From positions 1 through 64,000 of the forward strand of contig JALCNP010000015.1 of the NCBI GenBank assembly GCA_022649135.1: a stretch of DNA of 64,000 bases. The letters are read 5' to 3'. The notes under the pieces are model-generated. The model had not been told where the DNA came from and searched no databases. It was given only the letters and a program-made list of their open reading frames with translations. The stretch's first letter is position 1. Each line of letters opens with the position of its first letter. Origin of the DNA: Bifidobacterium sp. (GTDB lineage: Bacteria > Actinomycetota > Actinomycetes > Actinomycetales > Bifidobacteriaceae). This document shows positions 1-12,192 of this stretch, one piece after another. A program made the translations under genes and the position numbers.

Positions 1-332
1 TGACCCGCACCTGCTTTCCAATCGCGATTTTTCATGTTCAGCGACTGAAAATCGTACACAGGCCACGGGCCATGCTCCATCACCTCAAAAAACACCCACC
101 AATTTGCGCAAAAAACCGGACGTTATCAGACCGTTGATGTAACCCATCGGATGTCAGGAAGTAATCTAGCGAACTCCCCGTTGCACCGTTATTTGTTGAT
201 CGTACATTGATATTCGGAAAGATCTGCTGTTCGGTTGAATCGTGTATTGCTACCTTTACGAAGAAAGATGGTGAACCTGGTGTTTTTGAGCCGCGATAAC
301 GGTTATGTGTCAGATTGGGATGATGATGCCGT
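1..332. other. AT-rich intergenic or gene-edge segment
   Basis: No convincing coding frame was found here. The segment is AT-richer than the bulk of the window and lies upstream of the first ABC ATPase, so it probably carries that gene's promoter. No clear -35/-10 pair could be fixed. A gene may end just outside the left edge. Confidence 0.4.
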
Positions 333-1127
333 GTGAGTAGAGAAAATCAGGATGGAGAAGTTTCCAATTCTCTCCAAGCGATTACGGTACAGCACGTGAA
401 TTTTGCCTATCATCACAATGATCTAGTGCTTGAGAACATTAGTTTTGAGGTTCAGTGCGGGCAATCACTCTGTATTCTTGGGATAAATGGGGTGGGAAAA
501 ACAACCCTACTCAATCTGATTGTCGGCTTGCTTAAACCCAAATCTGGTAGAGCGATAATTAATCAGACTGTTGCACACTCATATCGTGATGTGTTTCTGC
601 TGACTGACATGTCGAACCTTTCAGAAGATATGAGTGTTCGTGACAACATCGCTTTTAAGATAATGCTGATGAATCGTCATCACACATCACACAATGATAC
701 GCTACCAAATATGGGCAGCTTGGAAGAAGAGCCCCTCATAAAAGCATTTGAGCTTGAATCTCAACTCGATAAGAAAGTATCGACCCTTTCTTCAGGGATG
801 CGTAAACGTGTGGGAATAGTGACGGGCATGCTGTTTAACCCCCGGATCATCATGCTTGATGAACCAACTAACTCTATCGACCCGTTCACGAGACAACTGT
901 TGATAGAGTACATGAACGAACTACATAAGGCTGGTAGGACACTACTTACAGTTACTCATGATCTTGAGTTCTGCTGGAAAACAGCAACACGGGTCATCAT
1001 TCTTAATAACCGGCAGATTATCAGAGATATGATGCTCGGCGAGTATGAGAGCTTTGAAGATTTCAGTTACGCGGCCGGGCTAACGAGTCAGGCGATCCAC
1101 AAGGATTTTGGTATCACGACCACTTAA
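333..1127 (+). CDS. ABC transporter ATP-binding protein (module A)
   Basis: A 264-residue ATPase subunit that would energise a partner permease in the membrane. Walker A is GINGVGKTT (about residues 51-59), the signature is LSSGMRKRVGI, Walker B is IIMLDEPTNSID, and the H-loop lies in TVTHDLEF. The start is a GTG; the N-terminus runs straight into the ABC fold. It is followed by the permease open frame at 1242-1937, which carries a stop codon, so this ATPase may now lack a working partner. It is a clear paralogue of the ATPase at 1992-2774 (same TNSID/TNSVD Walker B context and similar C-terminus). Single-domain ATPases of this size beside small six-helix permeases often act in bacteriocin immunity or peptide export; that role is inferred from the C39 exporter nearby. 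Confidence 0.85.
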   Translation: MSRENQDGEVSNSLQAITVQHVNFAYHHNDLVLENISFEVQCGQSLCILGINGVGKTTLLNLIVGLLKPKSGRAIINQTVAHSYRDVFLLTDMSNLSEDMSVRDNIAFKIMLMNRHHTSHNDTLPNMGSLEEEPLIKAFELESQLDKKVSTLSSGMRKRVGIVTGMLFNPRIIMLDEPTNSIDPFTRQLLIEYMNELHKAGRTLLTVTHDLEFCWKTATRVIILNNRQIIRDMMLGEYESFEDFSYAAGLTSQAIHKDFGITTT

Positions 1128-1241
1128 CAGTATTGCTATCATTCACAGCCGTTGATAGTGATAATGCGGCTATTTAATCTGGATTGAGTTTTCACTCTTG
1201 GCGAGAGGTTACAGCATGTTGAAATTGTTTGAGGTGTTGCG

Positions 1242-1937
1242 ATGAGAGCGGTTATCTGGCGTGATTGGCATCTGTTCAACGGGAAAATATCATCATGGGT
1301 GAATATCGTGTTTGTGATTGTGGGAGTGTGGGTGTCTGAAAGCATCGTCATGTACATTCTTTCGTTGCGGTTGCAAGCTGGTAGGCTGTCTCAGGCGGAA
1401 GTAGTCGTAGGAGTTTGCTATGCGTTGTTAATGGGAGTTTTTGGGTCTTATCCGTCCGTGTCAACTGCTTACGGGGATTGGCAGGATGGTATTGTTTCCG
1501 CGTTCCGTCAATCGGGTAGACCCATGATTGAGTATCTTGCGGGCAAGACAGTGATACCACTATGTATGTCGACTGCACTATTCACGATCAATCTGGTTGT
1601 AATGGAATTCATGGGTATACCAGTCATCTCAACTCAAAGTATATTGTCTGTGGTGGAATATTTATTAATCTGTTGGACTTGCGTGTGCTTTGCCACATAG
1701 GTTTCGCTCACTATCGGAGCACTGTCGAAGAAGGTTCCGATGATCGCGTTTATGCTCACATTCATGGCAGCACTATTATGTGCCGTTATGCTGATGATCT
1801 TGATTCAAGATGTCCCATTGCTCTCACTACTGTTTATTATGCTCTTACTGACGATCACAATCGGAACTTCCACATTCTTTTATCATCAACGATACGTGAA
1901 CACAATTCAACGAATCAATAATCAATGTAATAGTTGA
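1242..1937 (+). pseudogene. ABC-2 type permease interrupted by an in-frame amber codon
   Basis: The frame opening with ATG at 1242 encodes a hydrophobic protein that stops at a TAG at 1698-1700 after 152 codons. The same frame continues without shift through VSLTIGALSKK into another hydrophobic segment and ends near 1937. Read through, the product would be 231 codons long, matching the intact 227-residue permease at 2777-3460. The two share layout and the local motif FRQSGRPMIEY / FHQSSRSLISY. The simplest reading is a single nonsense mutation in a small ABC permease belonging with the upstream ATPase. A sequencing error or a functional truncated form cannot be excluded from one sequence. Confidence 0.75.
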
Positions 1938-1991
1938 ACTATTTTTCAGGTTTGGTTTCCTGTGGTTAGAAGCGTCTCTGATATGGGAGGT

Positions 1992-2774
1992 TTACACGGG
2001 GTGGATGCCGAAATTAATGTCGTGTTGTTCGCGTCCGAATGATGTTGCTTCGGTGAATGACTTAAAGTTGGGAAACTCGGTCAGCATTCGATCAGAAATT
2101 ATTCGTTTCCTGTCGAGGATGAGTATGCGTTCTGCTGTTCTCCATGTGTAGTCAAGATCGTGCGTAACAGTAATCAAAGTATGTCCTGTGCTCCGTAACT
2201 GTCGAGAAAAATCAACCAGTAGTTCACGTGTTGTCGGATCAACCGAGTTGGTTGGCTCATCAAGCAAGACCACATCAGGATTGAAGAGCATACCAATAGC
2301 AATACCCGCACGCCGTCGAAGCCCCGACGAGAGATCAGCCACCACGGTGTCAAGATGAGAGGCCAAGTCGAAAGCTGTAATAACCGGTGCCGTATCAATG
2401 GATACGGAATCCTTGTCATCATTCTGACTTTCTCGACGAGTTTGGAAAGCAAGCTGATGCAGGTGAATGTTTTCTCTAATGGTGAGTTTTGGTACCATGT
2501 TCTCGCCCTCTGTCATGAGGAACACTGTGGAAATCGAAGACACCAGTGACTGATTGATAACAGATTGCCCCGAGCAAGGGCGTAACAGTCCTACTATCAA
2601 CTGTAAGAGTGTGCTTTTCCCCGCGCCGTTGACACCGAGAATAGCCAAGGACTGGCCTTGTGGAACCGTGAAATCAACATGCTCGAGTACACTCATGCCT
2701 TTCTTGTAGCCGAATGACAGGTCATGCACGGCGATGATTGTCTGATGATCGATTGTATTGAATGAATTCGTCAT
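1992..2774 (-). CDS. ABC transporter ATP-binding protein (module B)
   Basis: A 260-residue ATPase with Walker A GVNGAGKST, signature LSSGLRRRAGI, Walker B VVLLDEPTNSVD and H-loop TVTHDLDY. Its start lies 2 bp beyond the stop of the upstream permease (2777-3460), so the two are one transcription unit. It faces the 333-1127 module head-on and is its paralogue. The substrate is unknown. Its place beside a C39-peptidase exporter suggests peptide export or self-immunity; that is inference. Confidence 0.87.
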   Translation of the reverse strand: MTNSFNTIDHQTIIAVHDLSFGYKKGMSVLEHVDFTVPQGQSLAILGVNGAGKSTLLQLIVGLLRPCSGQSVINQSLVSSISTVFLMTEGENMVPKLTIRENIHLHQLAFQTRRESQNDDKDSVSIDTAPVITAFDLASHLDTVVADLSSGLRRRAGIAIGMLFNPDVVLLDEPTNSVDPTTRELLVDFSRQLRSTGHTLITVTHDLDYTWRTAERILILDRKRIISDRMLTEFPNFKSFTEATSFGREQHDINFGIHPV

Positions 2775-2776
2775 AC

Positions 2777-3460
2777 TTATCTCTCTGGCTTCCCGTTTGA
2801 AGCAGTATTCACTGGGATAATGCCAAGTGGCTGCACATACCTACGGTGCAGTATTTGCAGCGATACCAGAAACGCGACCACTGCCATGAGCAGTGGGATA
2901 ACGATCGACAAGAAGAGAAAAATGGAGGTTTGGCCAAGACTCACAAATACTTCCGCGATGGTCATACACATGACCACACCTCCCTGAATAACGGCAGTCA
3001 ACGATTGATAGTGCTGCATCGACGCGCGACGTGTCTGCAAACACAAAGGAAGCACACAGACCAGTGAAATCACGAGAGTCGAGATAAGCGTCACATATCC
3101 GATAAGTATGTGCACAGTCAATTGGCCTATGCAAAACAGATACACAGTACCCAGGAAATACCCCACTACACTCAATCCTAAAGGTACGAGCATTTTCAAA
3201 AACACATAGGAAATCAAACTACGTGACGACTGATGAAACATTGCCAGAATCCCATTCGCAACATCTTCCATAATGCTTGAAGCCGCCAAATATGAAGGAA
3301 TAAACGCGTAAAACGGTGCAAGACAAACATTCAGCATCTGAGCATCCTTTGAACCGATAACAGGCATCCAAAAGATTAGTGATACTGGCACCAAAAAGTT
3401 TAATAACCAATTACCAAGCGTATTATAGAATTTCCCATCAAGATAAAGCACTACCCGCAT
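2777..3460 (-). CDS. ABC-2 type permease (module B)
   Basis: An intact 227-residue protein with about six hydrophobic segments and no soluble domain, as expected for the membrane half of a small ABC exporter. It is transcribed just ahead of, and nearly touching, its ATPase. The N-terminus MRVVLYLDGKFYNTLGNW resembles MRAVIWRDWHLFNGKIS of the broken permease at 1242, which supports duplication of a whole ATPase-permease unit. No family could be assigned by motif. The call rests on hydrophobicity, length and context. Confidence 0.7.
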   Translation of the reverse strand: MRVVLYLDGKFYNTLGNWLLNFLVPVSLIFWMPVIGSKDAQMLNVCLAPFYAFIPSYLAASSIMEDVANGILAMFHQSSRSLISYVFLKMLVPLGLSVVGYFLGTVYLFCIGQLTVHILIGYVTLISTLVISLVCVLPLCLQTRRASMQHYQSLTAVIQGGVVMCMTIAEVFVSLGQTSIFLFLSIVIPLLMAVVAFLVSLQILHRRYVQPLGIIPVNTASNGKPER

Positions 3461-3585
3461 AAGTGATCAACCCTTCCAACATTGATTAAAAAAATTATCG
3501 ATAGGATAATAAGCCACTCGAATTTCAGGAACCTGTCCTCCTCTAGACGACATAGTCTGCCTGAAAACCGCGTAGAATCAAAATG

Positions 3586-4284
3586 TCAGAATGAATTCAG
3601 TCTCTGCGTACGCAACAGCGCGGTGTTAGATATTATGGCAACAACCGTCAGACCGAAGGCCAAGAGAACGATGATACACAATCCTGCCACCCCACCGGGG
3701 AAGATGAGATATGTCCTTCGACTCTCAATCAGCAAGGATACAAGCAATCCGATCACACCTGCACACAGTAGCGAACCAACCCATATTCTACGCGCCAACG
3801 ATACAGACAAATCCATGATGCAACTACCGTTTTTAGGGTCCGTCAACAGGGTCCTGTGAGACTTCACCGATACTCCTCCCGATAATATGAGACATACCGA
3901 CAGGACTACGGTGAAAACGCTCACGGGAAGAGGATAACTAGCTTGCCTGTTGCCGTCGGAATTACTTAGCATCATTGTGGCCGCACACCCCAATACTCCC
4001 GTTAGGAAGGGAAGAAACACGTCGATAACGTCAACGACCGCGCCAACCCCACGGAATGCAACCAATACACAGCGCAGCACGGTCGCCACAACCGTCAGTA
4101 TGACGAGAATGATAGGGATCACCAACGCATTAGATTTCGGCCCCCACGCGTCAACAACTCCGGGGAAACTCCAATGAGTCGGAACGGTCGACGGCAAGCT
4201 ACCATAATCCACAAAAAATATCACAGCCAGAACAGCAGAAAGCAGTATCGAACAGACCAGTGAAGGCGAAACGAATTTTCTCAT
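3586..4284 (-). CDS. DUF1648/SdpI-like membrane protein
   Basis: A 232-residue membrane protein. Residues about 30-70 (a hydrophobic helix, then LPSTVPTHWSFPGVVDAWG and another helix) match the DUF1648 pattern, where a short loop containing P-x-H-W/F follows the first helix. DUF1648 also occurs in SdpI, the immunity protein for the Bacillus SDP toxin. About four to six further membrane segments follow. The start is ATG with a GGAAG-like site upstream. It lies on the same strand as module B, 125 bp upstream of the permease. A role in immunity or its regulation is plausible from context but not shown. Confidence 0.6.
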   Translation of the reverse strand: MRKFVSPSLVCSILLSAVLAVIFFVDYGSLPSTVPTHWSFPGVVDAWGPKSNALVIPIILVILTVVATVLRCVLVAFRGVGAVVDVIDVFLPFLTGVLGCAATMMLSNSDGNRQASYPLPVSVFTVVLSVCLILSGGVSVKSHRTLLTDPKNGSCIMDLSVSLARRIWVGSLLCAGVIGLLVSLLIESRRTYLIFPGGVAGLCIIVLLAFGLTVVAIISNTALLRTQRLNSF

Positions 4285-4943
4285 GTCACATCTTCCAAGT
4301 CAACGAGTTTGAATACGGTTCACCATAATTCAACATCTTCATTCCTCCATTATCGAATAAGTTGTTGTACACTTAACGGTCACATGATCTCATCAAACTG
4401 TTCACGAAAGAATAGTGGAGCACCCATTGGGTTACAGAAGGTTGAGAAGAAGGACTCTACTCTCGGAAGAATAAGGTGCATGATGCGCTTATTGACGTTA
4501 CCTAATCTCGATGTTGGGAATGATGCAGAATCACAAAGGAAACTTATAAATGAGAGCGTTATAGTATCGTGAGCGATCGTTTCACGATAATTGGTCCGTA
4601 CCACGTGCAGTGTTTACCACGGCCTCAGTTTGATTGTTTTTCGATTCTAAGTCTATATCAAGCCCCGTCTGAATCACTGGTCAATTTGCGAATGCGCTAT
4701 TGCATCTCCTATTTCAGTTTTCATATTATTCCACACAACAATGGTAAACAGAAAACTTAAATGATATGTAACTACGGATTGGAATACAGGCCACGGTGTG
4801 TGTCCTGAACTCATGCATGTTGAGCTCGTGCCCCGCTGTATATGTTTCTGGCGTGGTCAGTTCCAGGTTTCGTTGAGGTGAGTTCTGAGGATCATCTGTC
4901 ATTGTACGACCTGGATTACTGAAGTATCGAAAGGAAATAGACG
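4285..4943. other. AT-rich intergenic region in front of the C39 exporter
   Basis: This 659-bp gap separates divergent genes and must hold both promoters. I looked for a short precursor peptide with a double-glycine leader on both strands and found none. Two short frames (4309-4572 plus, 4380-4604 minus) have no recognisable features. The region contains one striking nested palindrome, listed separately. Confidence 0.5.
4565..4589. promoter_or_regulatory. Nested palindrome, candidate operator
   Basis: TATCGTGA at 4565-4572 is exactly inverted as TCACGATA at 4582-4589, and the 9-bp spacer contains the palindrome CGATCG. The site lies mid-gap between the divergent DUF1648 gene and the C39 exporter. 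It could be an operator for either promoter; a terminator is less likely because no T-tract follows. Confidence 0.45.
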
Positions 4944-7175
4944 TTGCAGAATTGCAAAGAAGCCCCCGACACTGGTCAACGGTTCAGGATTCGACATCAT
5001 CTCTCAGTCCCAGTCATGGAGCAGTCCGAGCATAGCGAATGCGGGCTAGTCTCTTGTGCAATGATTATTGCCGCTTTTGGTCGCCCTGTGAATATGGAGA
5101 GTCTGAGAACCCGTTACGGAGTGCCACGTAATGGCACTAGTCTTGCCAATTTAAACAGCATTCTCAGTGATTACGGGATTCGCAGTCGAGGCGTACGTAT
5201 CGACGATGTTCATGCTCTCCGCGACATGGCAACGCCGATCATTTTGCATTGGGATAAGGATCATTTCGTGGTATTCGACCGATACCTATTTGGCAGGTAT
5301 CATGTCATTGATCCCGCAGGAGGAAGAAACGCGTACAACGAGGCAAATTTCATCCAGCACTACTCCGGTGAGGCCTTGATCCCCAATCCACATGATGTTG
5401 TGCAAGCATCCACGAAGGGTTTGCATATGACAGCCCGTTCATACTTCTATGAGTTTGTGAAGCTGAAACCCGGTTTGATGTTCCTTACCCTGATTTTCTC
5501 ATTGATGATTCAAAGCCTCGGTCTTGCCATTCCCTCCGGAACTCGATATATTATTGATCATCCCTCATGGGTAGCATCGCAGCGTTTCTTCATGATTACT
5601 CTTCTTATTATTGCAGGATCGTTTTTTATTTACTATGTGATTAATGTGTTCAGCGGGTTAGTGCTGACTCACATGCAAGTTGCGTTCGGGAGTTTCTTGT
5701 TCCGTAAATATATGACTGGCGCATTGAAACACGACTACTCGTTCTTCGTCAATCGATCCAGCGGTGACATGATCTATCGAGCTAGTCTCATCATGGTTAT
5801 TGAGCAGACTCTCACATCCGGTTTCATCAGCAGTATGGTCTCACTGTTGTTCCTAGTGATCTATTTGATCACGATGCTCGCTTACTCCATCCCACTCACT
5901 GTAATGACACTCTGCATATGCCTGATCATTCTATTAGTATCAATGCTGTTTGCCGCGAAGAACAACCAGCTGGTTGAAGGGGAAACCATAGCTCAGACGG
6001 AAGTACAAAAATCGTTTATTCAAATTTTCACCGGTATTGAAACTATCAAAAGCCTTAATCTGGAACGTCATTTCTACGGGCAATGGTCACATAACCTCGA
6101 TACGCAACTGGCATTCCAAAAGCGCCGTGGCAGGCTCTCAGCTTGGCTGTCATCACTCTCCACGGCCTTAATATTTATCCTGCCTATTAGCATCGTTGCC
6201 TTCGGCATGTTCATGAATGCGCGTGGGATCATCGGGCTTGGAACCGTTGTAGGATTCATGACATTAGCATCATCGTTTGTTTCTCCGTTTTCGAACATCA
6301 CAACCGTCATCAGTCAGTTCGTTGCCATAGGAACATACGTGCGAAAAGTCACCGAAATACTACCAGTCAGTGCGCTACGAAACAACAACATGAATGGTAT
6401 TGATATGCAAGATCAGGCAACGGTAAACCCCAGAGATATTTACAGCATCCATATCAACAATATATGCTTCTCCTACACGGTTTTCGACCAGCCAGTTCTT
6501 CATGACATTGATTTTCGGATTCAAGGCGGCGAAAAGATCGCTATCGTCGGGCCGACCGGTTCAGGCAAAAGCACCCTGCTCAAGATAATTGCAGGTCTCA
6601 TCACGCCTACCCAAGGTTCGGTTCAAGTCAATGACCGGTATCAAATCGAATCCACGTCAAGACCATGGAGAGCGCACAATATTGCCTACCTTCACCAAGA
6701 CTCCACTGTTTTCAATGACAGCCTCGAAGACAACATCATCCTGCATCGCAAGGATATTCCGTCGAATATCCTCCACAAGGTTTGCGAACAGGTTGGCATT
6801 GACACGGCCATGACAGGAGGAGATCAAACCCTATCCACCATGATCAGCGAACACGGCATGAATCTCTCAGGAGGACAAAGGCAGAAGATCGCTATCGCAC
6901 GAGCGTTGGTCGGGCAACCCTCCCTACTGCTCATGGACGAACCCACGAGCTCACTCGACAACGATTCTGAGCGAAGAATCATGGATTACCTGCTGCATTC
7001 GTCAACCACCTGCGTAGTAGTTGCACACCGCCTTGCATCCATCAGACAATTCAATCAGATATATGTCATGGAACATGGCACAATCACAGAACAAGGCACT
7101 CATGAACAACTCATAAAACGCCAAGGATTATATTCACATCTCTACAGGTCACCGGACAACACCAATCACGATTGA
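4944..7175 (+). CDS. Peptidase-containing ABC exporter (C39 bacteriocin processing type)
   Basis: A 743-residue, full-length exporter that would cut a leader peptide and export the cargo. Residues about 20-130 are a C39 cysteine protease. Gln27 and Cys33 lie in the EQSEHSECGLVSC block, His107 in HWDKDHFVVFD, and the Asp in VIDPAGG, so the catalytic set is complete. A six-helix transmembrane domain follows (about residues 165-450). The nucleotide-binding domain has Walker A GPTGSGKST, signature NLSGGQRQKIAIARAL, Walker B LLMDEPTSSLD and H-loop VVAHRL. The start is TTG at 4944, chosen because AAGGAAA lies about 7 bp upstream. The family handles double-glycine peptides (class II bacteriocins, some lanthipeptides). 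No precursor or modification enzyme is in view. Confidence 0.9.
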   Translation: MQNCKEAPDTGQRFRIRHHLSVPVMEQSEHSECGLVSCAMIIAAFGRPVNMESLRTRYGVPRNGTSLANLNSILSDYGIRSRGVRIDDVHALRDMATPIILHWDKDHFVVFDRYLFGRYHVIDPAGGRNAYNEANFIQHYSGEALIPNPHDVVQASTKGLHMTARSYFYEFVKLKPGLMFLTLIFSLMIQSLGLAIPSGTRYIIDHPSWVASQRFFMITLLIIAGSFFIYYVINVFSGLVLTHMQVAFGSFLFRKYMTGALKHDYSFFVNRSSGDMIYRASLIMVIEQTLTSGFISSMVSLLFLVIYLITMLAYSIPLTVMTLCICLIILLVSMLFAAKNNQLVEGETIAQTEVQKSFIQIFTGIETIKSLNLERHFYGQWSHNLDTQLAFQKRRGRLSAWLSSLSTALIFILPISIVAFGMFMNARGIIGLGTVVGFMTLASSFVSPFSNITTVISQFVAIGTYVRKVTEILPVSALRNNNMNGIDMQDQATVNPRDIYSIHINNICFSYTVFDQPVLHDIDFRIQGGEKIAIVGPTGSGKSTLLKIIAGLITPTQGSVQVNDRYQIESTSRPWRAHNIAYLHQDSTVFNDSLEDNIILHRKDIPSNILHKVCEQVGIDTAMTGGDQTLSTMISEHGMNLSGGQRQKIAIARALVGQPSLLLMDEPTSSLDNDSERRIMDYLLHSSTTCVVVAHRLASIRQFNQIYVMEHGTITEQGTHEQLIKRQGLYSHLYRSPDNTNHD

Positions 7176-7690
7176 TAAACGACATTTGAAGCCATAATCA
7201 CCTGAGTCCCTGTCGCCATGCTTGCAGAAACACCTGAGAAGAAAATGAAATGACATTCTCCACTATTTCCACAACTCTTTTTGCTGGAGTCACATGCGTT
7301 TGGATTGTAACGGTTGAGGTTTCTGTGATATGTGGGTTCTGTGTCATTAAGAGCATGGCTGGTTTTGATCGTTGATTGGGCGGACGCGGCTCGTCTCGTT
7401 CCTGGGCCAGAACGTGGGGGTCCGCTAGGCCATCTGCTTCACCAATGCCATGGTTACTTCAGCACAAGTCCAGCATCCCTGCACCGGTCGATGCTCGTAT
7501 CCGTTATTTTTTGGTCGGAACGGCTTGCTTCAGAGTTCACTTCACAAGATTCTTGTGTGAATCGCCTCTGCTTCCGATGCTTAACGAATCCCGTTCGGAT
7601 GATGTTCCGCATGAGCACGATTCCCGGACTTCAGATCGAGAACGTTGTCCGCAGCGCAGACCCCGACTTTGAGAGTCAGGGTCTGCGCTC
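7176..7690. other. Intergenic boundary between AT-rich island and GC-rich backbone
   Basis: Base composition rises sharply in this gap. Short plus-strand frames from about 7330 to 7690 have no recognisable domain and may be the remains of a broken gene. The only structured element seen is the hairpin at 7653-7689. Confidence 0.4.
7653..7689 (-). terminator. Hairpin immediately downstream of the helicase gene
   Basis: Two 16-nt arms (7653-7668 and 7674-7689) pair with one mismatch around a 5-nt loop. The hairpin begins 2 bp after the helicase stop codon on the minus strand. No T-tract follows, so it would be a weak or factor-assisted terminator. Confidence 0.6.
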
Positions 7691-10600
7691 CTAGAGGGGA
7701 GACTCTCCGGTCAGATGTCGGAAAAGCTCCGGGTCTACTGGGGATTGCAGTTTCAATGTGGATACCACGACCTTGACTTTGCTCGGCTTTCCCTGCGAAG
7801 AATGCGTGGTTTCGCGCAGGTTGCCGATCGACGTCGCTTTTCCGACGAAATAGTAGGATCCCTCGACGGACTCCTTTTTACGCCGAATAAACACGGGGAC
7901 GAAATGCGTTGCCTCCCAGGCCCGGGTTCCTGGTGTGCCATGCAGAAGCCAGCGATACTCGGCGGATTTCAGGGACCGCTGATTTTTGCTATACCACTGC
8001 AATTCCTGTGAGCTGAGAAAACGGTCCTCGTATTGGCTGGTTTCGTATTTGATGAAGATGGGCAGGGAGTCCGTTTCCTCATCGAGGCGGTATCCGCCGA
8101 CGTTCTGCGCGATCTGTTCCTGCTTCCAGCCGCATAGTCTCATCACTTCGAAGATGTCGTATTTTTCACCGTAGACGAATCCACGCTCGACAGTGAGGTG
8201 CTTGTGTTCGGTTTCCCGATACCGTGCTTTGCAGTTGGACAATCCGGCCCGGACGGTGTCGGCGAGGAACCGTGCGAATGTCTGATTGTCGTCCAGCAGA
8301 CGCACGAATCTTTCGGACATGGCCCATCGCACACCATCATGGGTGCAGATAAGCGCAGTGTTGCCGAAACGCGACCGATTCGGCGCGGTGAAATAGGAAT
8401 AGTCGAGCACCCGTAAGGCTGAGAGGCTTTGACGAGGGGAGGAGTCCGCCTGCGGAATGAATCGTTTCACCATGTCGCAGAGTTCATCGACGGTTATCGA
8501 ACGGCCGTTGTTTCTCGTGGCGGGTGTCTCCCGTCCGTGAGATTGCGCAGTGGATTCGGAGCCACCGGGAATGCCACACAGATAGGACAGGGCCAGAAGC
8601 TCATGGGGGCGCGCCCCACGTATCTGTGTCGCCGTCAGCATCTTCATAATCGAATCATGCTCGTCCGATGTCGGTTGGAGCTCGTGCAGATACGAGGTTT
8701 CGGTTCCCGTCCCCATCGCCGATCCGGACTCTGTTTCCCCTGATTCTGCATCCTTTGTGCCTGTTCGTCGGGAAAGGCTGCGTTCCCGGGAGCGGACGAA
8801 ACTCAGATAGTCTCCCGACTTCATCGCGAGAGTGGAAACAAGAGAGGGGTCGGTAAGGGAGAAATCCATGAGCATGGGTATTCGAGCGAGCTGGAAACGC
8901 AGCTGTCTGTACTGTTCGCTCAGAAGTTTCATCTCAGACAGGTTCGCCGTATCCAGCGCGGCGAGGATTCGGTTTCGTGCGATGGGGTCGAAGCTGATCG
9001 ATGTGATGCCCATCGATTCGCGCTGCATGTTCTTCCGTGCCACATCCCGATCTCCGGTATTGCCGTATAGGGCAAGGGGAATGAGATAGTTGTTCGTGTA
9101 ATTGCCAACGAAATCGATGACGACAAGGCAGTCCTTGTTCGCCGTTTTACGCAGTCCACGTCCGAGCTGCTGCGTGAAGATGATGCTGGACTGTGTTGGG
9201 CGGAGCATCACTATCTGATTGATGACGGGGATGTCGATACCCTCATTGAACAGGTCGACGGTGAAGATGTAATCAAGATCTCCGGTGTTGAGCGAATCGA
9301 TGGCTTGTTCTCTTTGCGCGGTCGGAGTGTCACCTGTTACCGCGCGTGTGTGGTAAGGCCGCTCGGCCTGCTGGTTGAATTGCTGGTTGAACAGTTCTGA
9401 GAGACGTTTCGCCTCGTCGCGTCTGCTGCAGAACATAATGCCATGTACCGGTGTTCCCGCCTGCGAATACACCTGAATCATGTCGATGATGTACCGGATC
9501 CGTTCTGGACTGGTAAGACGCTCGAGCCAGCGTGCCAATGGTGAGCCGTCCCCCATGGAGCGCAGGGAGCGGGTCAACGGTTCTGTGGAGCCGTTCTCCT
9601 CGGGGTTCTCCTCAATATATTCATGAACGCCGTAATAATGAAATGGACAGAGCATGTTTTGTTCAAGGGCCTGCTGCAATCTGATCTCATAGGCGATATT
9701 GTTCCCGAACAGCGTGAATATGTTCGCACCGTCCGTGCGTTCCGGGGTGGCGGTCATGCCGAGCATGAAACGTGGCGTGAAATGATCGATGATGCGTCGG
9801 TAGGAACTCGCGGCGGCATGATGCACCTCGTCTATGAGAATGTAGTCGAAATAATCACTGTCGAAAGTTGCCAGAACCTCGGGCTTCGACATGGTCTGCA
9901 CGCTGGCGAAGAGATAATCGGCGTCACTTCGCCTATTGGCACCGGAAAGAATTCCGTATCGGTGGCGGGGACCCATGACAGTGCGGTAGACACGCATGGA
10001 ATTAGTGAGGATCTGCTCCTGATGGGCAAGATACAGGAGGCGACGGGGATGACATTGCAGGGCATCGAGTGCGGACAGATATGTTTTTCCCGTTCCCGTG
10101 GCGGAAATGACGACGGCCTGGCTTTCGCCCCTTTCCCGGAGGCCATCGAGCCGCTGCAGCGCCTCGTTCTGCATGGCATTGGGAGATATGGGCTTCGAAT
10201 CGTGTGATGGCATCGGAGCGGGATGACGGATCGGTGCATACTTGCTGAAGTCCCTCTCGTATTGACGCAGCCAGTCCTCGGTGAGGGGATCCGACTCACG
10301 CAGCTGCCGGTCGATTTCCCGGGCCATCTGCGACACCAGGGATCCGTCTCGCAGGGCCGATACCCTTAGATTCCACTCGCGGTTCGTCGTCAATGCGTTG
10401 TCGGTGAGATTGGAACTTCCGATGTATGCGCAATACAGCGGTCCTCCCGGATGCTCGTGCTGGAAGATGTATCCCTTGGGATGATAGGGGTAGCTTGCGA
10501 TGCTCTGATCCATGGCATGGCCGGCGTCGGGACGCCAGATGAAAACGTCTATGCCAGCGTGACGATGGAGATTGAGCAGCTCCCGGAACGTTTTCGGCGA

Positions 10601-10948
10601 ATTGAAGTAATTGTATGTGGATGTGAATATCCGACCCGAATGAGGCCGGGTTCCTTTCCGGAAATCAAGAAAATGCTGTTTGAGACCTTGCAGGGCGCTT
10701 TGCGATACGAAGGCCACGGACATATCGAAGCGTGTGCTTGATTCAAGCTCGTCTGCAATGGCGTCGCCCATGGTCCGGCCGTCGTGATTGGCGATAAGAA
10801 GAGGCTCGTGGTTCGTCTCGGCAGCGTCGTTGCGGTGGACGAAGCCGGAGAGAACCGATTCGACGAGGGACTTGTCCGCGGGATCGTCTGAAGCTCTTCT
10901 TAAGCGTGAATCAGCGAAACGGTAAGGCTCGTCGAAGGTTTCAATCAT
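7691..10948 (-). CDS. PLD-nuclease/SF2 helicase/DUF3427 protein
   Basis: A 1085-residue multidomain protein. Residues about 60-230 form a phospholipase-D-like nuclease module: HPK at 156-158 and IGSSN around 177-180 fit one HKD half-site. The helicase core follows: Walker A SATGTGKT (282-289), DEVH box (373-376), motif III GMTATPERTD and motif VI QQLGRGLRKT. The last ~200 residues look like DUF3427 (FIKYETSQYEDRFLS, YYFVGK). Proteins of this design are thought to remodel and possibly cut nucleic acids; no exact substrate is established. The start overlaps the end of the NUDIX gene by 8 bp, so they are translationally linked. With Vsr divergent next door, a repair or anti-phage role is a reasonable inference. 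Confidence 0.88.
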   Translation of the reverse strand: MIETFDEPYRFADSRLRRASDDPADKSLVESVLSGFVHRNDAAETNHEPLLIANHDGRTMGDAIADELESSTRFDMSVAFVSQSALQGLKQHFLDFRKGTRPHSGRIFTSTYNYFNSPKTFRELLNLHRHAGIDVFIWRPDAGHAMDQSIASYPYHPKGYIFQHEHPGGPLYCAYIGSSNLTDNALTTNREWNLRVSALRDGSLVSQMAREIDRQLRESDPLTEDWLRQYERDFSKYAPIRHPAPMPSHDSKPISPNAMQNEALQRLDGLRERGESQAVVISATGTGKTYLSALDALQCHPRRLLYLAHQEQILTNSMRVYRTVMGPRHRYGILSGANRRSDADYLFASVQTMSKPEVLATFDSDYFDYILIDEVHHAAASSYRRIIDHFTPRFMLGMTATPERTDGANIFTLFGNNIAYEIRLQQALEQNMLCPFHYYGVHEYIEENPEENGSTEPLTRSLRSMGDGSPLARWLERLTSPERIRYIIDMIQVYSQAGTPVHGIMFCSRRDEAKRLSELFNQQFNQQAERPYHTRAVTGDTPTAQREQAIDSLNTGDLDYIFTVDLFNEGIDIPVINQIVMLRPTQSSIIFTQQLGRGLRKTANKDCLVVIDFVGNYTNNYLIPLALYGNTGDRDVARKNMQRESMGITSISFDPIARNRILAALDTANLSEMKLLSEQYRQLRFQLARIPMLMDFSLTDPSLVSTLAMKSGDYLSFVRSRERSLSRRTGTKDAESGETESGSAMGTGTETSYLHELQPTSDEHDSIMKMLTATQIRGARPHELLALSYLCGIPGGSESTAQSHGRETPATRNNGRSITVDELCDMVKRFIPQADSSPRQSLSALRVLDYSYFTAPNRSRFGNTALICTHDGVRWAMSERFVRLLDDNQTFARFLADTVRAGLSNCKARYRETEHKHLTVERGFVYGEKYDIFEVMRLCGWKQEQIAQNVGGYRLDEETDSLPIFIKYETSQYEDRFLSSQELQWYSKNQRSLKSAEYRWLLHGTPGTRAWEATHFVPVFIRRKKESVEGSYYFVGKATSIGNLRETTHSSQGKPSKVKVVVSTLKLQSPVDPELFRHLTGESPL

Positions 10949-11402
10949 CAGAATCCATCATTCCCGCAGCCCCGGGATCCGGAACATGGTGAAGGTCCAT
11001 ATGAGCGATCAGACGCATCGCCTCCCGGTCGGCCGGTGCCCATTGGTATCGCGCGAGTTCCTTGGGTGGCAGCCAGCGTATCCGGCTGTGCTCCGTCACC
11101 GTGGGCATCCCATGAGCCACGTGGCACAGAAAGGTCGAGAGAATCACCGTTCCGAATTCATATCGTTCGCGCGTCGTGCATATCTCTTGTCCCACTCGGA
11201 TGTCGCACAGCAGCTCTTCGCGTATCTCCCGCTCAAGCGCCTCGCGTTGCGTCTCGTGGGGTTTCACCTTTCCTCCGGGGAACTCCCAATACCCCGCCAG
11301 AGATCGTCCGGGACCGCGCTGTGCTCCGAGCACCCTGCCGTTTCGGACGATCGCGGCCGCGACCACGGGTATGTCCCGGCCGATGTCGGTCTGTGACTCC
11401 AT
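10941..11402 (-). CDS. NUDIX hydrolase, MutT-like
   Basis: A 153-residue protein beginning MESQTDIGRDIPVVAAAIV. The NUDIX box is visible: GGKVKPHETQREALEREIREELL matches Gx5Ex7REUxEExGU except that the position after EE is Leu-Leu rather than x-Gly. The segment YWEFPGGK is typical of MutT-type enzymes that clean up oxidised or non-standard (deoxy)nucleoside triphosphates. The open frame extends further upstream with Arg/Pro-rich residues unlike any NUDIX protein, so the start was placed at the ATG at 11402. It overlaps the helicase start by 8 bp and is probably the first gene of that operon. Confidence 0.85.
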   Translation of the reverse strand: MESQTDIGRDIPVVAAAIVRNGRVLGAQRGPGRSLAGYWEFPGGKVKPHETQREALEREIREELLCDIRVGQEICTTRERYEFGTVILSTFLCHVAHGMPTVTEHSRIRWLPPKELARYQWAPADREAMRLIAHMDLHHVPDPGAAGMMDSDD

Positions 11403-11495
11403 TGACGATGCTCCTCGGGAAGGTTCGTTCGCTGTCGGGACCAGGATACATCGAGGCTTGCCGTCCGCTACATGCCCACGTCCATAATGGAAGTC

Positions 11496-12146
11496 ATGAG
11501 TCGGTCGGGAAAGATGCGTTCGGGAAAGAAGACGGTGGAAAAGTATGCTCGCGGAACACGCAGTTATACGATGTCGCATATTCGGGGCAAGGACACGTCC
11601 ATCGAGGTGATGGTCCGGCAGTACCTCTTTTCCCGGGGGCTGAGGTTTCGCAAGAACGACAAGCGCTATCCCGGACATCCCGATGTGGTTCTTCCCCGAT
11701 GGCGTGCCATCGTCTTCGTGAACGGATGCTTCTGGCATATGCACGAGGGGTGCCCGAAGCAGTCGATGCCCAAATCCCACGTCGAATTCTGGAGCGCCAA
11801 GCTGTTGCGCAACCGTGAGCGCGATCGTCTTCAGCATGCCACCCTGGCCGCGCAGGGGTGGCATGTCATCGTGGTCTGGGAGTGCGAGCTGTCCAGGGAC
11901 ACTCGGGAGCGGCGTTTGGAAAGGCTGTACGAGGAGATTACCGGAGGCGAATCCTGTTCCTGGATTCCGGCGGGGGGCGGGGTGGATTCGGCGACGGCGA
12001 CGACGTCGGGTATGGATTCGGCGACGGGTTCGGGGCTGGAGTCCGGACTTGGATGCGATCCGGACGCGGGCGACGGCGTCGAGAAGGGGGATCGTGCGGG
12101 CCACGATTCCGTTCCCCGTGATGGTATGACTGCCGATGGTGGTTAA
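11496..12146 (+). CDS. Very short patch repair (Vsr-like) endonuclease
   Basis: The first ~145 residues are a Vsr-type endonuclease: RGTRSYTMSHIRGKDTSIE near the N-terminus, FRKNDKRYPGHPDVVLP with the metal-binding Asp, and VNGCFWHMHEGC, the hallmark zinc/active-site segment. Vsr nicks at T:G mismatches left by deamination of 5-methylcytosine. Two features are unusual. No C5-cytosine methyltransferase is adjacent, though Vsr usually sits beside one. The last ~65 residues are a low-complexity Gly/Ser/Asp tail. The gene is divergent from the NUDIX-helicase pair and shares its promoter gap. The start is uncertain: ATGs at 11472, 11487 and 11496 are all in frame, and GGAAG lies just before the last. 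Confidence 0.83.
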   Translation: MSRSGKMRSGKKTVEKYARGTRSYTMSHIRGKDTSIEVMVRQYLFSRGLRFRKNDKRYPGHPDVVLPRWRAIVFVNGCFWHMHEGCPKQSMPKSHVEFWSAKLLRNRERDRLQHATLAAQGWHVIVVWECELSRDTRERRLERLYEEITGGESCSWIPAGGGVDSATATTSGMDSATGSGLESGLGCDPDAGDGVEKGDRAGHDSVPRDGMTADGG

Positions 12147-12170
12147 CGCGGATCTCTGAACGCGGGTGCG

Positions 12171-12192
12171 CCAGCTTTTTGTGCTGGTTTTC
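12171..12192 (+). terminator. Rho-independent-like terminator after vsr
   Basis: CCAGC (12171-12175) pairs with GCTGG (12183-12187) around a T-rich loop and is followed by TTTTCTGTT. The stem is short but position and T-run fit a terminator. The remaining ~255 bp to the aminotransferase shows nothing else clear. Confidence 0.6.

Follow-up and report, generated by a model that had tools for sequence, protein, structure and literature searches.

A probable two-gene restriction module in Bifidobacterium pairing a SauUSI-type enzyme with a NudG-like NUDIX hydrolase

Introduction

Type IV restriction enzymes are generally regarded as nucleases that work alone and pose no danger to a host that leaves its own DNA unmethylated. 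Here we analyze a 64,000-nucleotide stretch of DNA from Bifidobacterium sp. (GenBank assembly GCA_022649135.1, contig JALCNP010000015.1, positions 1 to 64,000; hereafter the window), in which a gene for a large protein with PLD nuclease, helicase and DUF3427 domains (hereafter the helicase) overlaps a gene for a NUDIX hydrolase, and a vsr gene lies divergently beside them. The closest described system is SauUSI of Staphylococcus aureus (structure 7clg), which cuts DNA carrying 5-methylcytosine (5mC) or 5-hydroxymethylcytosine (5hmC) at S(5mC)NGS and combines a PLD nuclease and an SF2 motor with an SRA-like domain at its C-terminus, as described in sections of PMC7913695 and PMC3874153; the latter sections also report its use of ATP or dATP.

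For the NUDIX, the closest solved relatives include NudG (Orf135) of Escherichia coli and Q5LBB1 of Bacteroides fragilis. Kinetic data in part of PMC5158307 give Q5LBB1 a kcat/Km of 4.8e6 per M per s for 5-methyl-dCTP (5-Me-dCTP), 4.4e6 for 5-hydroxymethyl-dCTP (5-hm-dCTP) and 8.5e4 for 5-OH-dCTP, and give NudG a value of 1.3e6 per M per s for 5-Me-dCTP, for which a passage of PMC3744803 quotes 3e5. The closest characterised relatives of this NUDIX thus break down the free counterparts of the bases that SauUSI detects in DNA, but not those alone.

A link between the two families has already surfaced in print, in that a figure legend in PMC7641849 identifies as MutT homologs the small 'DNA repair' proteins encoded beside SauUSI homologs of Streptococcus, with no function assigned to them in the legend's section. 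Among the matches listed from open-access full texts, none proposed a NUDIX as modified-nucleotide clean-up for such enzymes, nor did the retrieved portions of PMC3874153, PMC7913695, PMC7159879, PMC12707154, PMC12839542, PMC5512222 and PMC12904381; among the matches listed from the open-access literature there was likewise no proposal of substrate matching or cross-family pairing of the NUDIX, and the word NUDIX does not occur in the SauUSI mechanism paper (PMC7913695). A first-pass annotation of the locus, made from the sequence, had stated that no characterised system was known to have exactly this composition, which was too strong given that SauUSI is characterised, that its gene in S. aureus has the same NUDIX beside it, and that the Streptococcus legend already places MutT homologs there. 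Its suggestion of a defence against phages with altered bases fits with the helicase being a SauUSI-type modification-dependent restriction enzyme.

Results

The large protein is probably a SauUSI-type restriction enzyme

The two genes lie on the minus strand of the window as follows:

7691..10948, minus strand: PLD-helicase-DUF3427 gene, probable SauUSI-type type IV restriction enzyme, 1085 aa
10307..10597, minus strand: PLD nuclease domain, residues 118-214, with H156, K158, GSSN and E present
9101..10189, minus strand: SF2 helicase-like ATPase, residues 254-616, with Walker A ATGTGKT and DEVHH
7709..8638, minus strand: DUF3427 C-terminal region with SRA-type 5mC site
10941..11402, minus strand: NudG-like NUDIX hydrolase, predicted 5-substituted (d)CTP pyrophosphohydrolase (PDC-S07), 153 aa

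The helicase matches the SauUSI structure 7clg with 548 bits (E=3.7e-163) in two parts, residues 30-718 and 835-1080, and the PADLOC model mREase_IV with 551 bits, with the PLD - SF2 ATPase - coupler - SRA-like order common to both proteins. At the level of single domains, DUF3427 (176.9 bits), ResIII (112) and Helicase_C (51.9) were all detected, while PLDc_2 scored 26.2 bits, slightly below its Pfam cut-off of 27. The N-terminal PLD nuclease contains the HxK, N and E residues, and 11/11 aligned relatives have the same catalytic H, K, N and E; the SF2 ATPase carries both Walker A and DExH motifs. In the C-terminal DUF3427/SRA-like domain the 5mC site is retained, with five of the six residues that have a proposed role in handling the flipped base kept (SauUSI Y831, F841, I842, D858 and W868). 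Two SauUSI residues are replaced in the window protein, the base-cavity residue M829 by G and E126 by Q. A predicted structure added little beyond the sequence match, as the model was poor (predicted local distance difference test score, pLDDT, 55.7) and its top Foldseek match, again 7clg (E=5.7e-54), reached a TM score of only 0.22.

As expected for the host of such an enzyme, its own genome (95.7% complete) contains no match to the C5-methyltransferase family PF00145, and no methyltransferase family was found among the ten window proteins scanned, adenine and N4 enzymes elsewhere in the genome not having been sought. Within that scope (C5 type genome-wide, ten window proteins), the enzyme stands alone without a cognate methyltransferase, as SauUSI does. 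Collectively, these features indicate that the window helicase is probably a SauUSI-type, 5mC-dependent type IV restriction enzyme, and predict that it cuts DNA containing 5mC or 5hmC with the use of ATP and as a dimer.

The neighbouring NUDIX resembles pyrimidine dNTP diphosphatases

The end of the NUDIX gene overlaps the start of the helicase gene by 8 bp (10941-10948), as the first-pass annotation had it. An open reading frame of 387 aa called for the NUDIX is over-extended, with the conserved protein beginning at about 11402 (MESQTD..., 153 aa). This protein scores 58 bits for the NUDIX domain and 151.7 bits for PDC-S07, which PADLOC lists as a single-gene phage-defence candidate; in this analysis, the same NUDIX accompanies modification-dependent restriction enzymes as their partner. 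In NCBIfam it scores highest for the pyrimidine dNTP diphosphatase NudG (100.9 bits), with MutT behind at 61.7 bits, and it is 36% identical to NudG of E. coli and 20% identical to MutT. The complete module NUDIXes of our alignment have Asp at the position of MutT Asn119, a specificity position, as NudG does. The window NUDIX belongs to the same fold family, and its Nudix-box catalytic residues align with those of NudG (GG-K...E...RE..EE); the final Gly of the classical box (EExGU) is L in the window protein, and most relatives in alignment A2 have yet other residues there. As its NudG score lies below the NCBIfam equivalog cut-off, we did not call it NudG itself but a NudG-like NUDIX, which is predicted to hydrolyse 5-substituted (d)CTP, acting on 5-Me-dCTP and 5-hm-dCTP.

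Among solved structures the best relative is 5x1x, followed by NudG (2rrk) and Q5LBB1 (3gwy). An S. aureus record has, immediately upstream of its SauUSI gene, a gene whose product matches 5x1x without a difference over 130 aa, and the helicase piece that follows this NUDIX is nearly identical to residues 1-499 of 7clg, so that SauUSI and the window enzyme share their NUDIX neighbour as well. E. coli nudG, in contrast, sits among unrelated genes.

NUDIX and helicase are a recurrent pair within the genus

We surveyed 112 genomes of the genus, of which 59 contained DUF3427, 53 contained the NUDIX (E<=1e-20) and 50 contained both. The 65 DUF3427 matches in those 59 genomes correspond to 61 places once four second pieces of split genes are merged. 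At 49/61 places a NUDIX lay within 3.02 kb, in all 49 cases upstream and on the same strand, and it was directly upstream in 41/41 genomes scored as having an intact helicase, counts that share ancestry and rest on intact and broken lists drawn up by hand. A count of co-occurrence, which the first-pass annotation had suggested, thus came out above chance for NUDIX and helicase.

The 12 places with no NUDIX within 4 kb hold truncated, fragmented or split helicases, two of which (G068 and the second copy in G065; G and L numbers denote genomes and loci) were judged from the DUF3427 match listing alone. For instance, the helicase of L079 begins at residue 176, and in L078 a deletion joins NUDIX residue 53 to helicase residue 332. 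A search of contigs for close relatives returned only 2 loci. Together, these counts establish the NUDIX and PLD-helicase as a real recurrent unit.

The pairing extends beyond the genus in several gene orders

In 396 actinobacterial genomes, the NUDIX adjoins 9/9 SauUSI-like places (the window's own included), compared with 0/43 weak DUF3427 places (NUDIX within 6 kb, E<=1e-25), although one of the latter, L046 (G434), has a weak NUDIX-like gene (44 bits) beside it. We accordingly rejected the idea that the NUDIX accompanies all DUF3427 helicases. Outside the genus, 35 loci whose helicase scored above 360 bits were inspected, with L040-L060 left out for their short flanks and with 12/20 plasmid records and 4/9 phage records with a helicase match taken into the locus set. 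A NUDIX was present at 21/35 of these loci (L062, L063-L070, L083-L087, L119, L122, L127 and L229-L232), 8 of which are also counted among the 9 actinobacterial SauUSI-like places, and absent at 14/35 (L088-L094, L117, L118, L120, L121, L123, L124 and L126), among which the helicase matches of L117, L118 and L120 have no N-terminus. On viral contigs, only L119, L122 and L127 among 80 loci have the NUDIX.

Named hosts of the loci outside the genus are Actinomycetota, Bacillota and one Bacteroidota plasmid (Hymenobacter). Three gene orders were seen: a same-strand NUDIX on the upstream side of the helicase, a same-strand NUDIX on its downstream side, and a downstream NUDIX in convergent orientation. 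In L119, a YgjP-like gene lies between the helicase and the downstream NUDIX. On this viral contig (3160-8694), a GmrSD_N gene, the PLD-DUF3427 helicase, the YgjP-like gene and the NUDIX stand in a row, placing two candidate modification-dependent enzymes near one NUDIX.

Related NUDIXes lie near other nucleases of modification-dependent type

Using the S. aureus NUDIX as bait, we retrieved 29 plasmid-collection records and inspected the neighbours in 15, the remaining 14 including 8 from E. coli or Klebsiella. Five of the 15 were SauUSI-type, and five more (L197, L201, L204, L205 and L206) placed the NUDIX beside a nuclease of modification-dependent type by family match. These comprise an MrcB_N gene with a weak HNH match (L197); an AspBHI-type enzyme (340 bits, PADLOC methyl-directed) that lies about 2.4 kb from the NUDIX, across a GmrSD_N-domain gene (L201); McrA-like HNH genes overlapping the NUDIX by 4 bp (L205 and L206; match to 6ghc in the HNH domain only, E=2.9e-21 and 7.4e-21); and a fusion protein of 487 aa, in which a McrA-like HNH (6ghc, E=9.8e-23, residues 271-368) precedes the NUDIX (L204). 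For L204 and L205, the HNH domain has a further, weak match to that of IscB, under its cut-off. HNH or DUF262 genes of unsure type lay near the NUDIX in L198, L199 and L203, and no nuclease of this kind was found among the inspected neighbours in L200 and L202.

High-scoring NUDIXes (>=154 bits) occurred at 12 places in the 396 actinobacterial genomes, 9 of them SauUSI-type and 1 McrBC-like. The McrBC-like operon (L207) scored 139 bits for McrC in Pfam and 138.6 and 57 bits for McrB and McrC in NCBIfam, the latter two under their cut-offs, and PADLOC does not call it McrBC. The other two, L208 and L209, have no modification-dependent nuclease among the neighbours scanned: the NUDIX of L209 lies among tRNA-synthetase and tsa genes, and that of L208 has next to it metabolic genes and some assigned to no family. 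For the lower-scoring NUDIXes (113-149 bits; 17 loci, L210-L226), no modification-dependent nuclease appeared among the families listed for selected neighbours (25 of 59 for Pfam, 25 of 41 for PADLOC).

In a NUDIX tree of 57 rows, SauUSI-linked NUDIXes fell in more than one cluster rather than one clade, which means that the link originated, or was re-formed, on more than one occasion. In L. amylolyticus (L201), the NUDIX linked to AspBHI/GmrSD groups as sister to three SauUSI-linked NUDIXes from lactobacilli (support 100/98), a placement that fits an exchange of partners.

Several other genes were seen near these NUDIXes. In L207, a gene with a NucS_C match just under cut-off (4463-5596) lies between NUDIX and McrC, its open frame overlapping the NUDIX frame by 8 bp; in L208, a nucleoside phosphorylase (Ppnp) gene (4813-5493) adjoins the NUDIX; and in L215 (G317), the gene next to the related NUDIX (4019-5464) matches thymidylate synthase in part (78.7 bits) and may encode a pyrimidine-modifying enzyme. 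Two lactobacilli and one Priestia have a MazG-like pyrophosphohydrolase gene 3' of the restriction gene (L083 6868-7188, L085 6945-7256 and L197 5656-5985), as if a second dNTP-cleaning enzyme had been added. Human DCTPP1, a dNTP pyrophosphatase to be compared with these MazG-like enzymes, hydrolyses 5-methyl-dCTP by another fold (sections of PMC4491611 and PMC10742078); the window module contains none.

Damaged helicases keep company with cytosine methyltransferases

A C5-methyltransferase gene was found within 5 kb of 6 broken or lost helicase copies, in G001 (at 20 bp), G087, G018, G023, G043 and G033, and within 5 kb of 0 intact copies. Across genomes, a methyltransferase was present in 15/21 with a broken or lost helicase compared with 14/41 with an intact one (Fisher p=0.0074), and in 11/14 compared with 14/41 (p=0.0054) when seven probable frameshifts are left out, statistics that ignore shared ancestry and rely on lists compiled by hand. 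Genome-level mutual exclusion of DUF3427 and C5-methyltransferase was rejected, with the methyltransferase in 26/59 genomes with DUF3427 and 29/53 without (p=0.34). Only helicase damage and methyltransferases within 5 kb tracked one another, not presence at the level of the genome. Silencing of a methylation-dependent enzyme by a restriction-modification system is on record (a passage of PMC8989522). The association with broken copies supports a 5mC target here, though the association is not absolute.

Vsr is a chromosomal neighbour outside the module

Beyond the NUDIX, the window continues with the following features:

11403..11471, no strand: divergent NUDIX/Vsr gap
11472..12146, plus strand: Vsr mismatch endonuclease, judged a near-core chromosomal neighbour outside the module
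12170..12188, plus strand: terminator-like hairpin 3' of vsr, weakly supported (6 such sites compared with 4.6 +/- 2.1 in shuffles)

The Vsr protein is a clear member of its endonuclease family (Vsr domain 96.2 bits; TIGR00632 127.3 bits, cut-off 97.85; 1cw0 E=9.6e-29), with no partner C5-methyltransferase in its own genome. Vsr occurs in 94/112 genus genomes, 43 of which have no C5-methyltransferase at E<=1e-10. Across the 49 modules, it lay within 5 kb of the DUF3427 match in 6 and within 10 kb in 13; it was more than 100 kb away on the same contig in 7 and on another contig or absent in 22, where the distance is unmeasurable. The Vsr neighbourhood is kept in genomes with no module (L107, L108, L111, L112, L114 and L116), such as L114 (G050), where Vsr has near it the aminotransferase and metQ/metN genes that also accompany it in the window, and Vsr is therefore best read as a fixed neighbour. 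Following this census and synteny comparison we rejected Vsr as a member of the unit; it is a near-core chromosomal neighbour.

The first-pass annotation had drawn the three genes together as a tight cluster, with Vsr sharing the promoter gap of the other two. The NUDIX and helicase half of that cluster held and the Vsr link proved not to be conserved; a divergent gap of about 70 bp does separate the NUDIX start from the first Vsr ATG (11472), but no sigma-70-like site was found in it (11403-11471).

G+C content is 53-55% in the helicase gene, 44-47% in the first 7 kb and roughly 58-67% after 11 kb. The AT-rich stretch at 1-7200, which adjoins the module and may be a mobile island, encodes two ABC-transporter ATPases, a DUF1648 protein and a peptidase-C39 bacteriocin-type exporter (4944-7175).

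Discussion

We consider it probable that the NUDIX and helicase genes form a two-gene modification-dependent restriction module, in which a cutter of 5mC- or 5hmC-containing DNA is joined by a modified-dCTP NUDIX that guards host DNA, with Vsr excluded. In the proposed mechanism, the C-terminal SRA-like domain would find 5-methyl- or 5-hydroxymethylcytosine in incoming DNA, the SF2 motor would translocate, and the PLD nuclease would shred the DNA, steps we infer from homology to SauUSI, for which they have been shown in print. Modified cytosine nucleotides would come from shredded or salvaged DNA, or from phage, and the NUDIX would keep them from re-entering the host chromosome and making a target of it. 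The pair would thereby act on one chemical mark, the enzyme at the level of the polymer and the NUDIX at that of the monomer. That similar pairs recur in unrelated bacteria suggests such a guard against marking one's own DNA for destruction, and self-protection, preventing self-cutting, is the most likely job of the NUDIX. A broader proposal, to which we give about an even chance, is that modification-dependent restriction is commonly two-level, combining a nuclease with a chemically matched hydrolase (a NUDIX, sometimes a MazG-like enzyme), the partner having been swapped or recruited repeatedly among SauUSI, McrBC, McrA-like, AspBHI/GmrSD-domain and MrcB-HNH enzymes.

Several observations weigh against these proposals. 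In the helicase, the residue replaced by Q, SauUSI E126, is the acidic residue of HxKx4E, a position that varies in the family. The NUDIX falls below the NCBIfam equivalog cut-off for NudG (156 bits), its activity is predicted from a relative only 36% identical, and such relatives are not confined to 5mC: NudG is also reported to act on CTP, dCTP and 2-OH-dATP (parts of PMC3744803 and PMC5158307), and a further relative, mycobacterial MutT2, digests dCTP too (a section of PMC10742078). Among the 14 loci outside the genus with no NUDIX are six distant members on plasmids and a Fusobacterium enzyme that appears intact (L088), and among the HNH partners the match covers the nuclease domain only, a recognition domain being matched only in L197 (MrcB_N). 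Within the genus, the 14 genomes with both an intact helicase and a C5-methyltransferase and the shared ancestry of the counts likewise tell against the proposals, and the polarity of loss, with the NUDIX never lost from an intact helicase (0/12), is not significant (about 0.2, by hand) because the helicase is seven times longer than the NUDIX.

The main rival to self-protection is an offensive role, in which the NUDIX drains the 5-hydroxymethyl- or 5-methyl-dCTP of a phage, leaving modified phages unable to complete their protected genomes, while the restriction enzyme cuts DNA already modified. The equal activity of Q5LBB1 on 5-hydroxymethyl-dCTP and 5-Me-dCTP (part of PMC5158307), the listing of the NUDIX as phage-defence candidate PDC-S07 by PADLOC, and a review passage proposing 5hm-dCTP pool monitoring as a possible phage sensor (PMC12707154) would all suit this role; draining the modified precursor, by contrast, would make phage DNA less recognisable to the partner, so that the two proteins would act partly in opposition, which is an argument and not a result. 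We judge the offensive role unlikely. The NUDIX might instead tune the restriction enzyme by hydrolysing a nucleotide that the latter uses or senses, rather than by cleaning the pool. Tight co-expression and a NUDIX fusion would also be expected from such a regulator, and SauUSI does use ATP or dATP (a section of PMC3874153), but Q5LBB1 is far less active on canonical nucleoside triphosphates (part of PMC5158307) and related NUDIXes also stand beside HNH enzymes, for which no need of these nucleotides is expected, leaving regulation improbable.

About as doubtful, in our view, is the idea that the NUDIX belongs to the ordinary MutT-type 8-oxo-dGTP hydrolases, or is some other housekeeping enzyme, and accompanies the restriction gene with no function in common. 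Relatives are annotated as MutT in several records, and 5x1x itself was deposited as 'Mutator mutT protein'; set against this are the lower identity to MutT than to NudG, the Asp at the Asn119 position, a pairing that recurs in three gene orders, with several unrelated enzyme types and in a fusion, and the repeated origin or remaking of the SauUSI link seen in the tree. The idea with the least in its favour, raised by the first-pass annotation, is a three-gene repair unit in which Vsr mends the T:G mismatches that arise from 5mC deamination. All three genes do relate to 5mC, and Vsr is divergent from the NUDIX in the window and adjoins it in one distant actinobacterium (G427/L068), but the wide distribution of Vsr (94/112 genomes), its distances from the modules (<=10 kb in 13/49, >100 kb in 7) and the same neighbourhood where no module exists, as in L114, make such a unit very improbable.

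If type IV enzymes need a guard on the nucleotide pool, as the self-protective reading of the NUDIX implies, then 5mC and 5hmC derived from salvage would be a real threat to the cells that carry them, and discrimination between self and non-self would take place at the level of DNA precursors as well. On the same reading, PDC-S07 and the S. aureus protein of PDB 5x1x would acquire a function, and a familiar obstacle to gene transfer would be predicted to have a property open to direct test.

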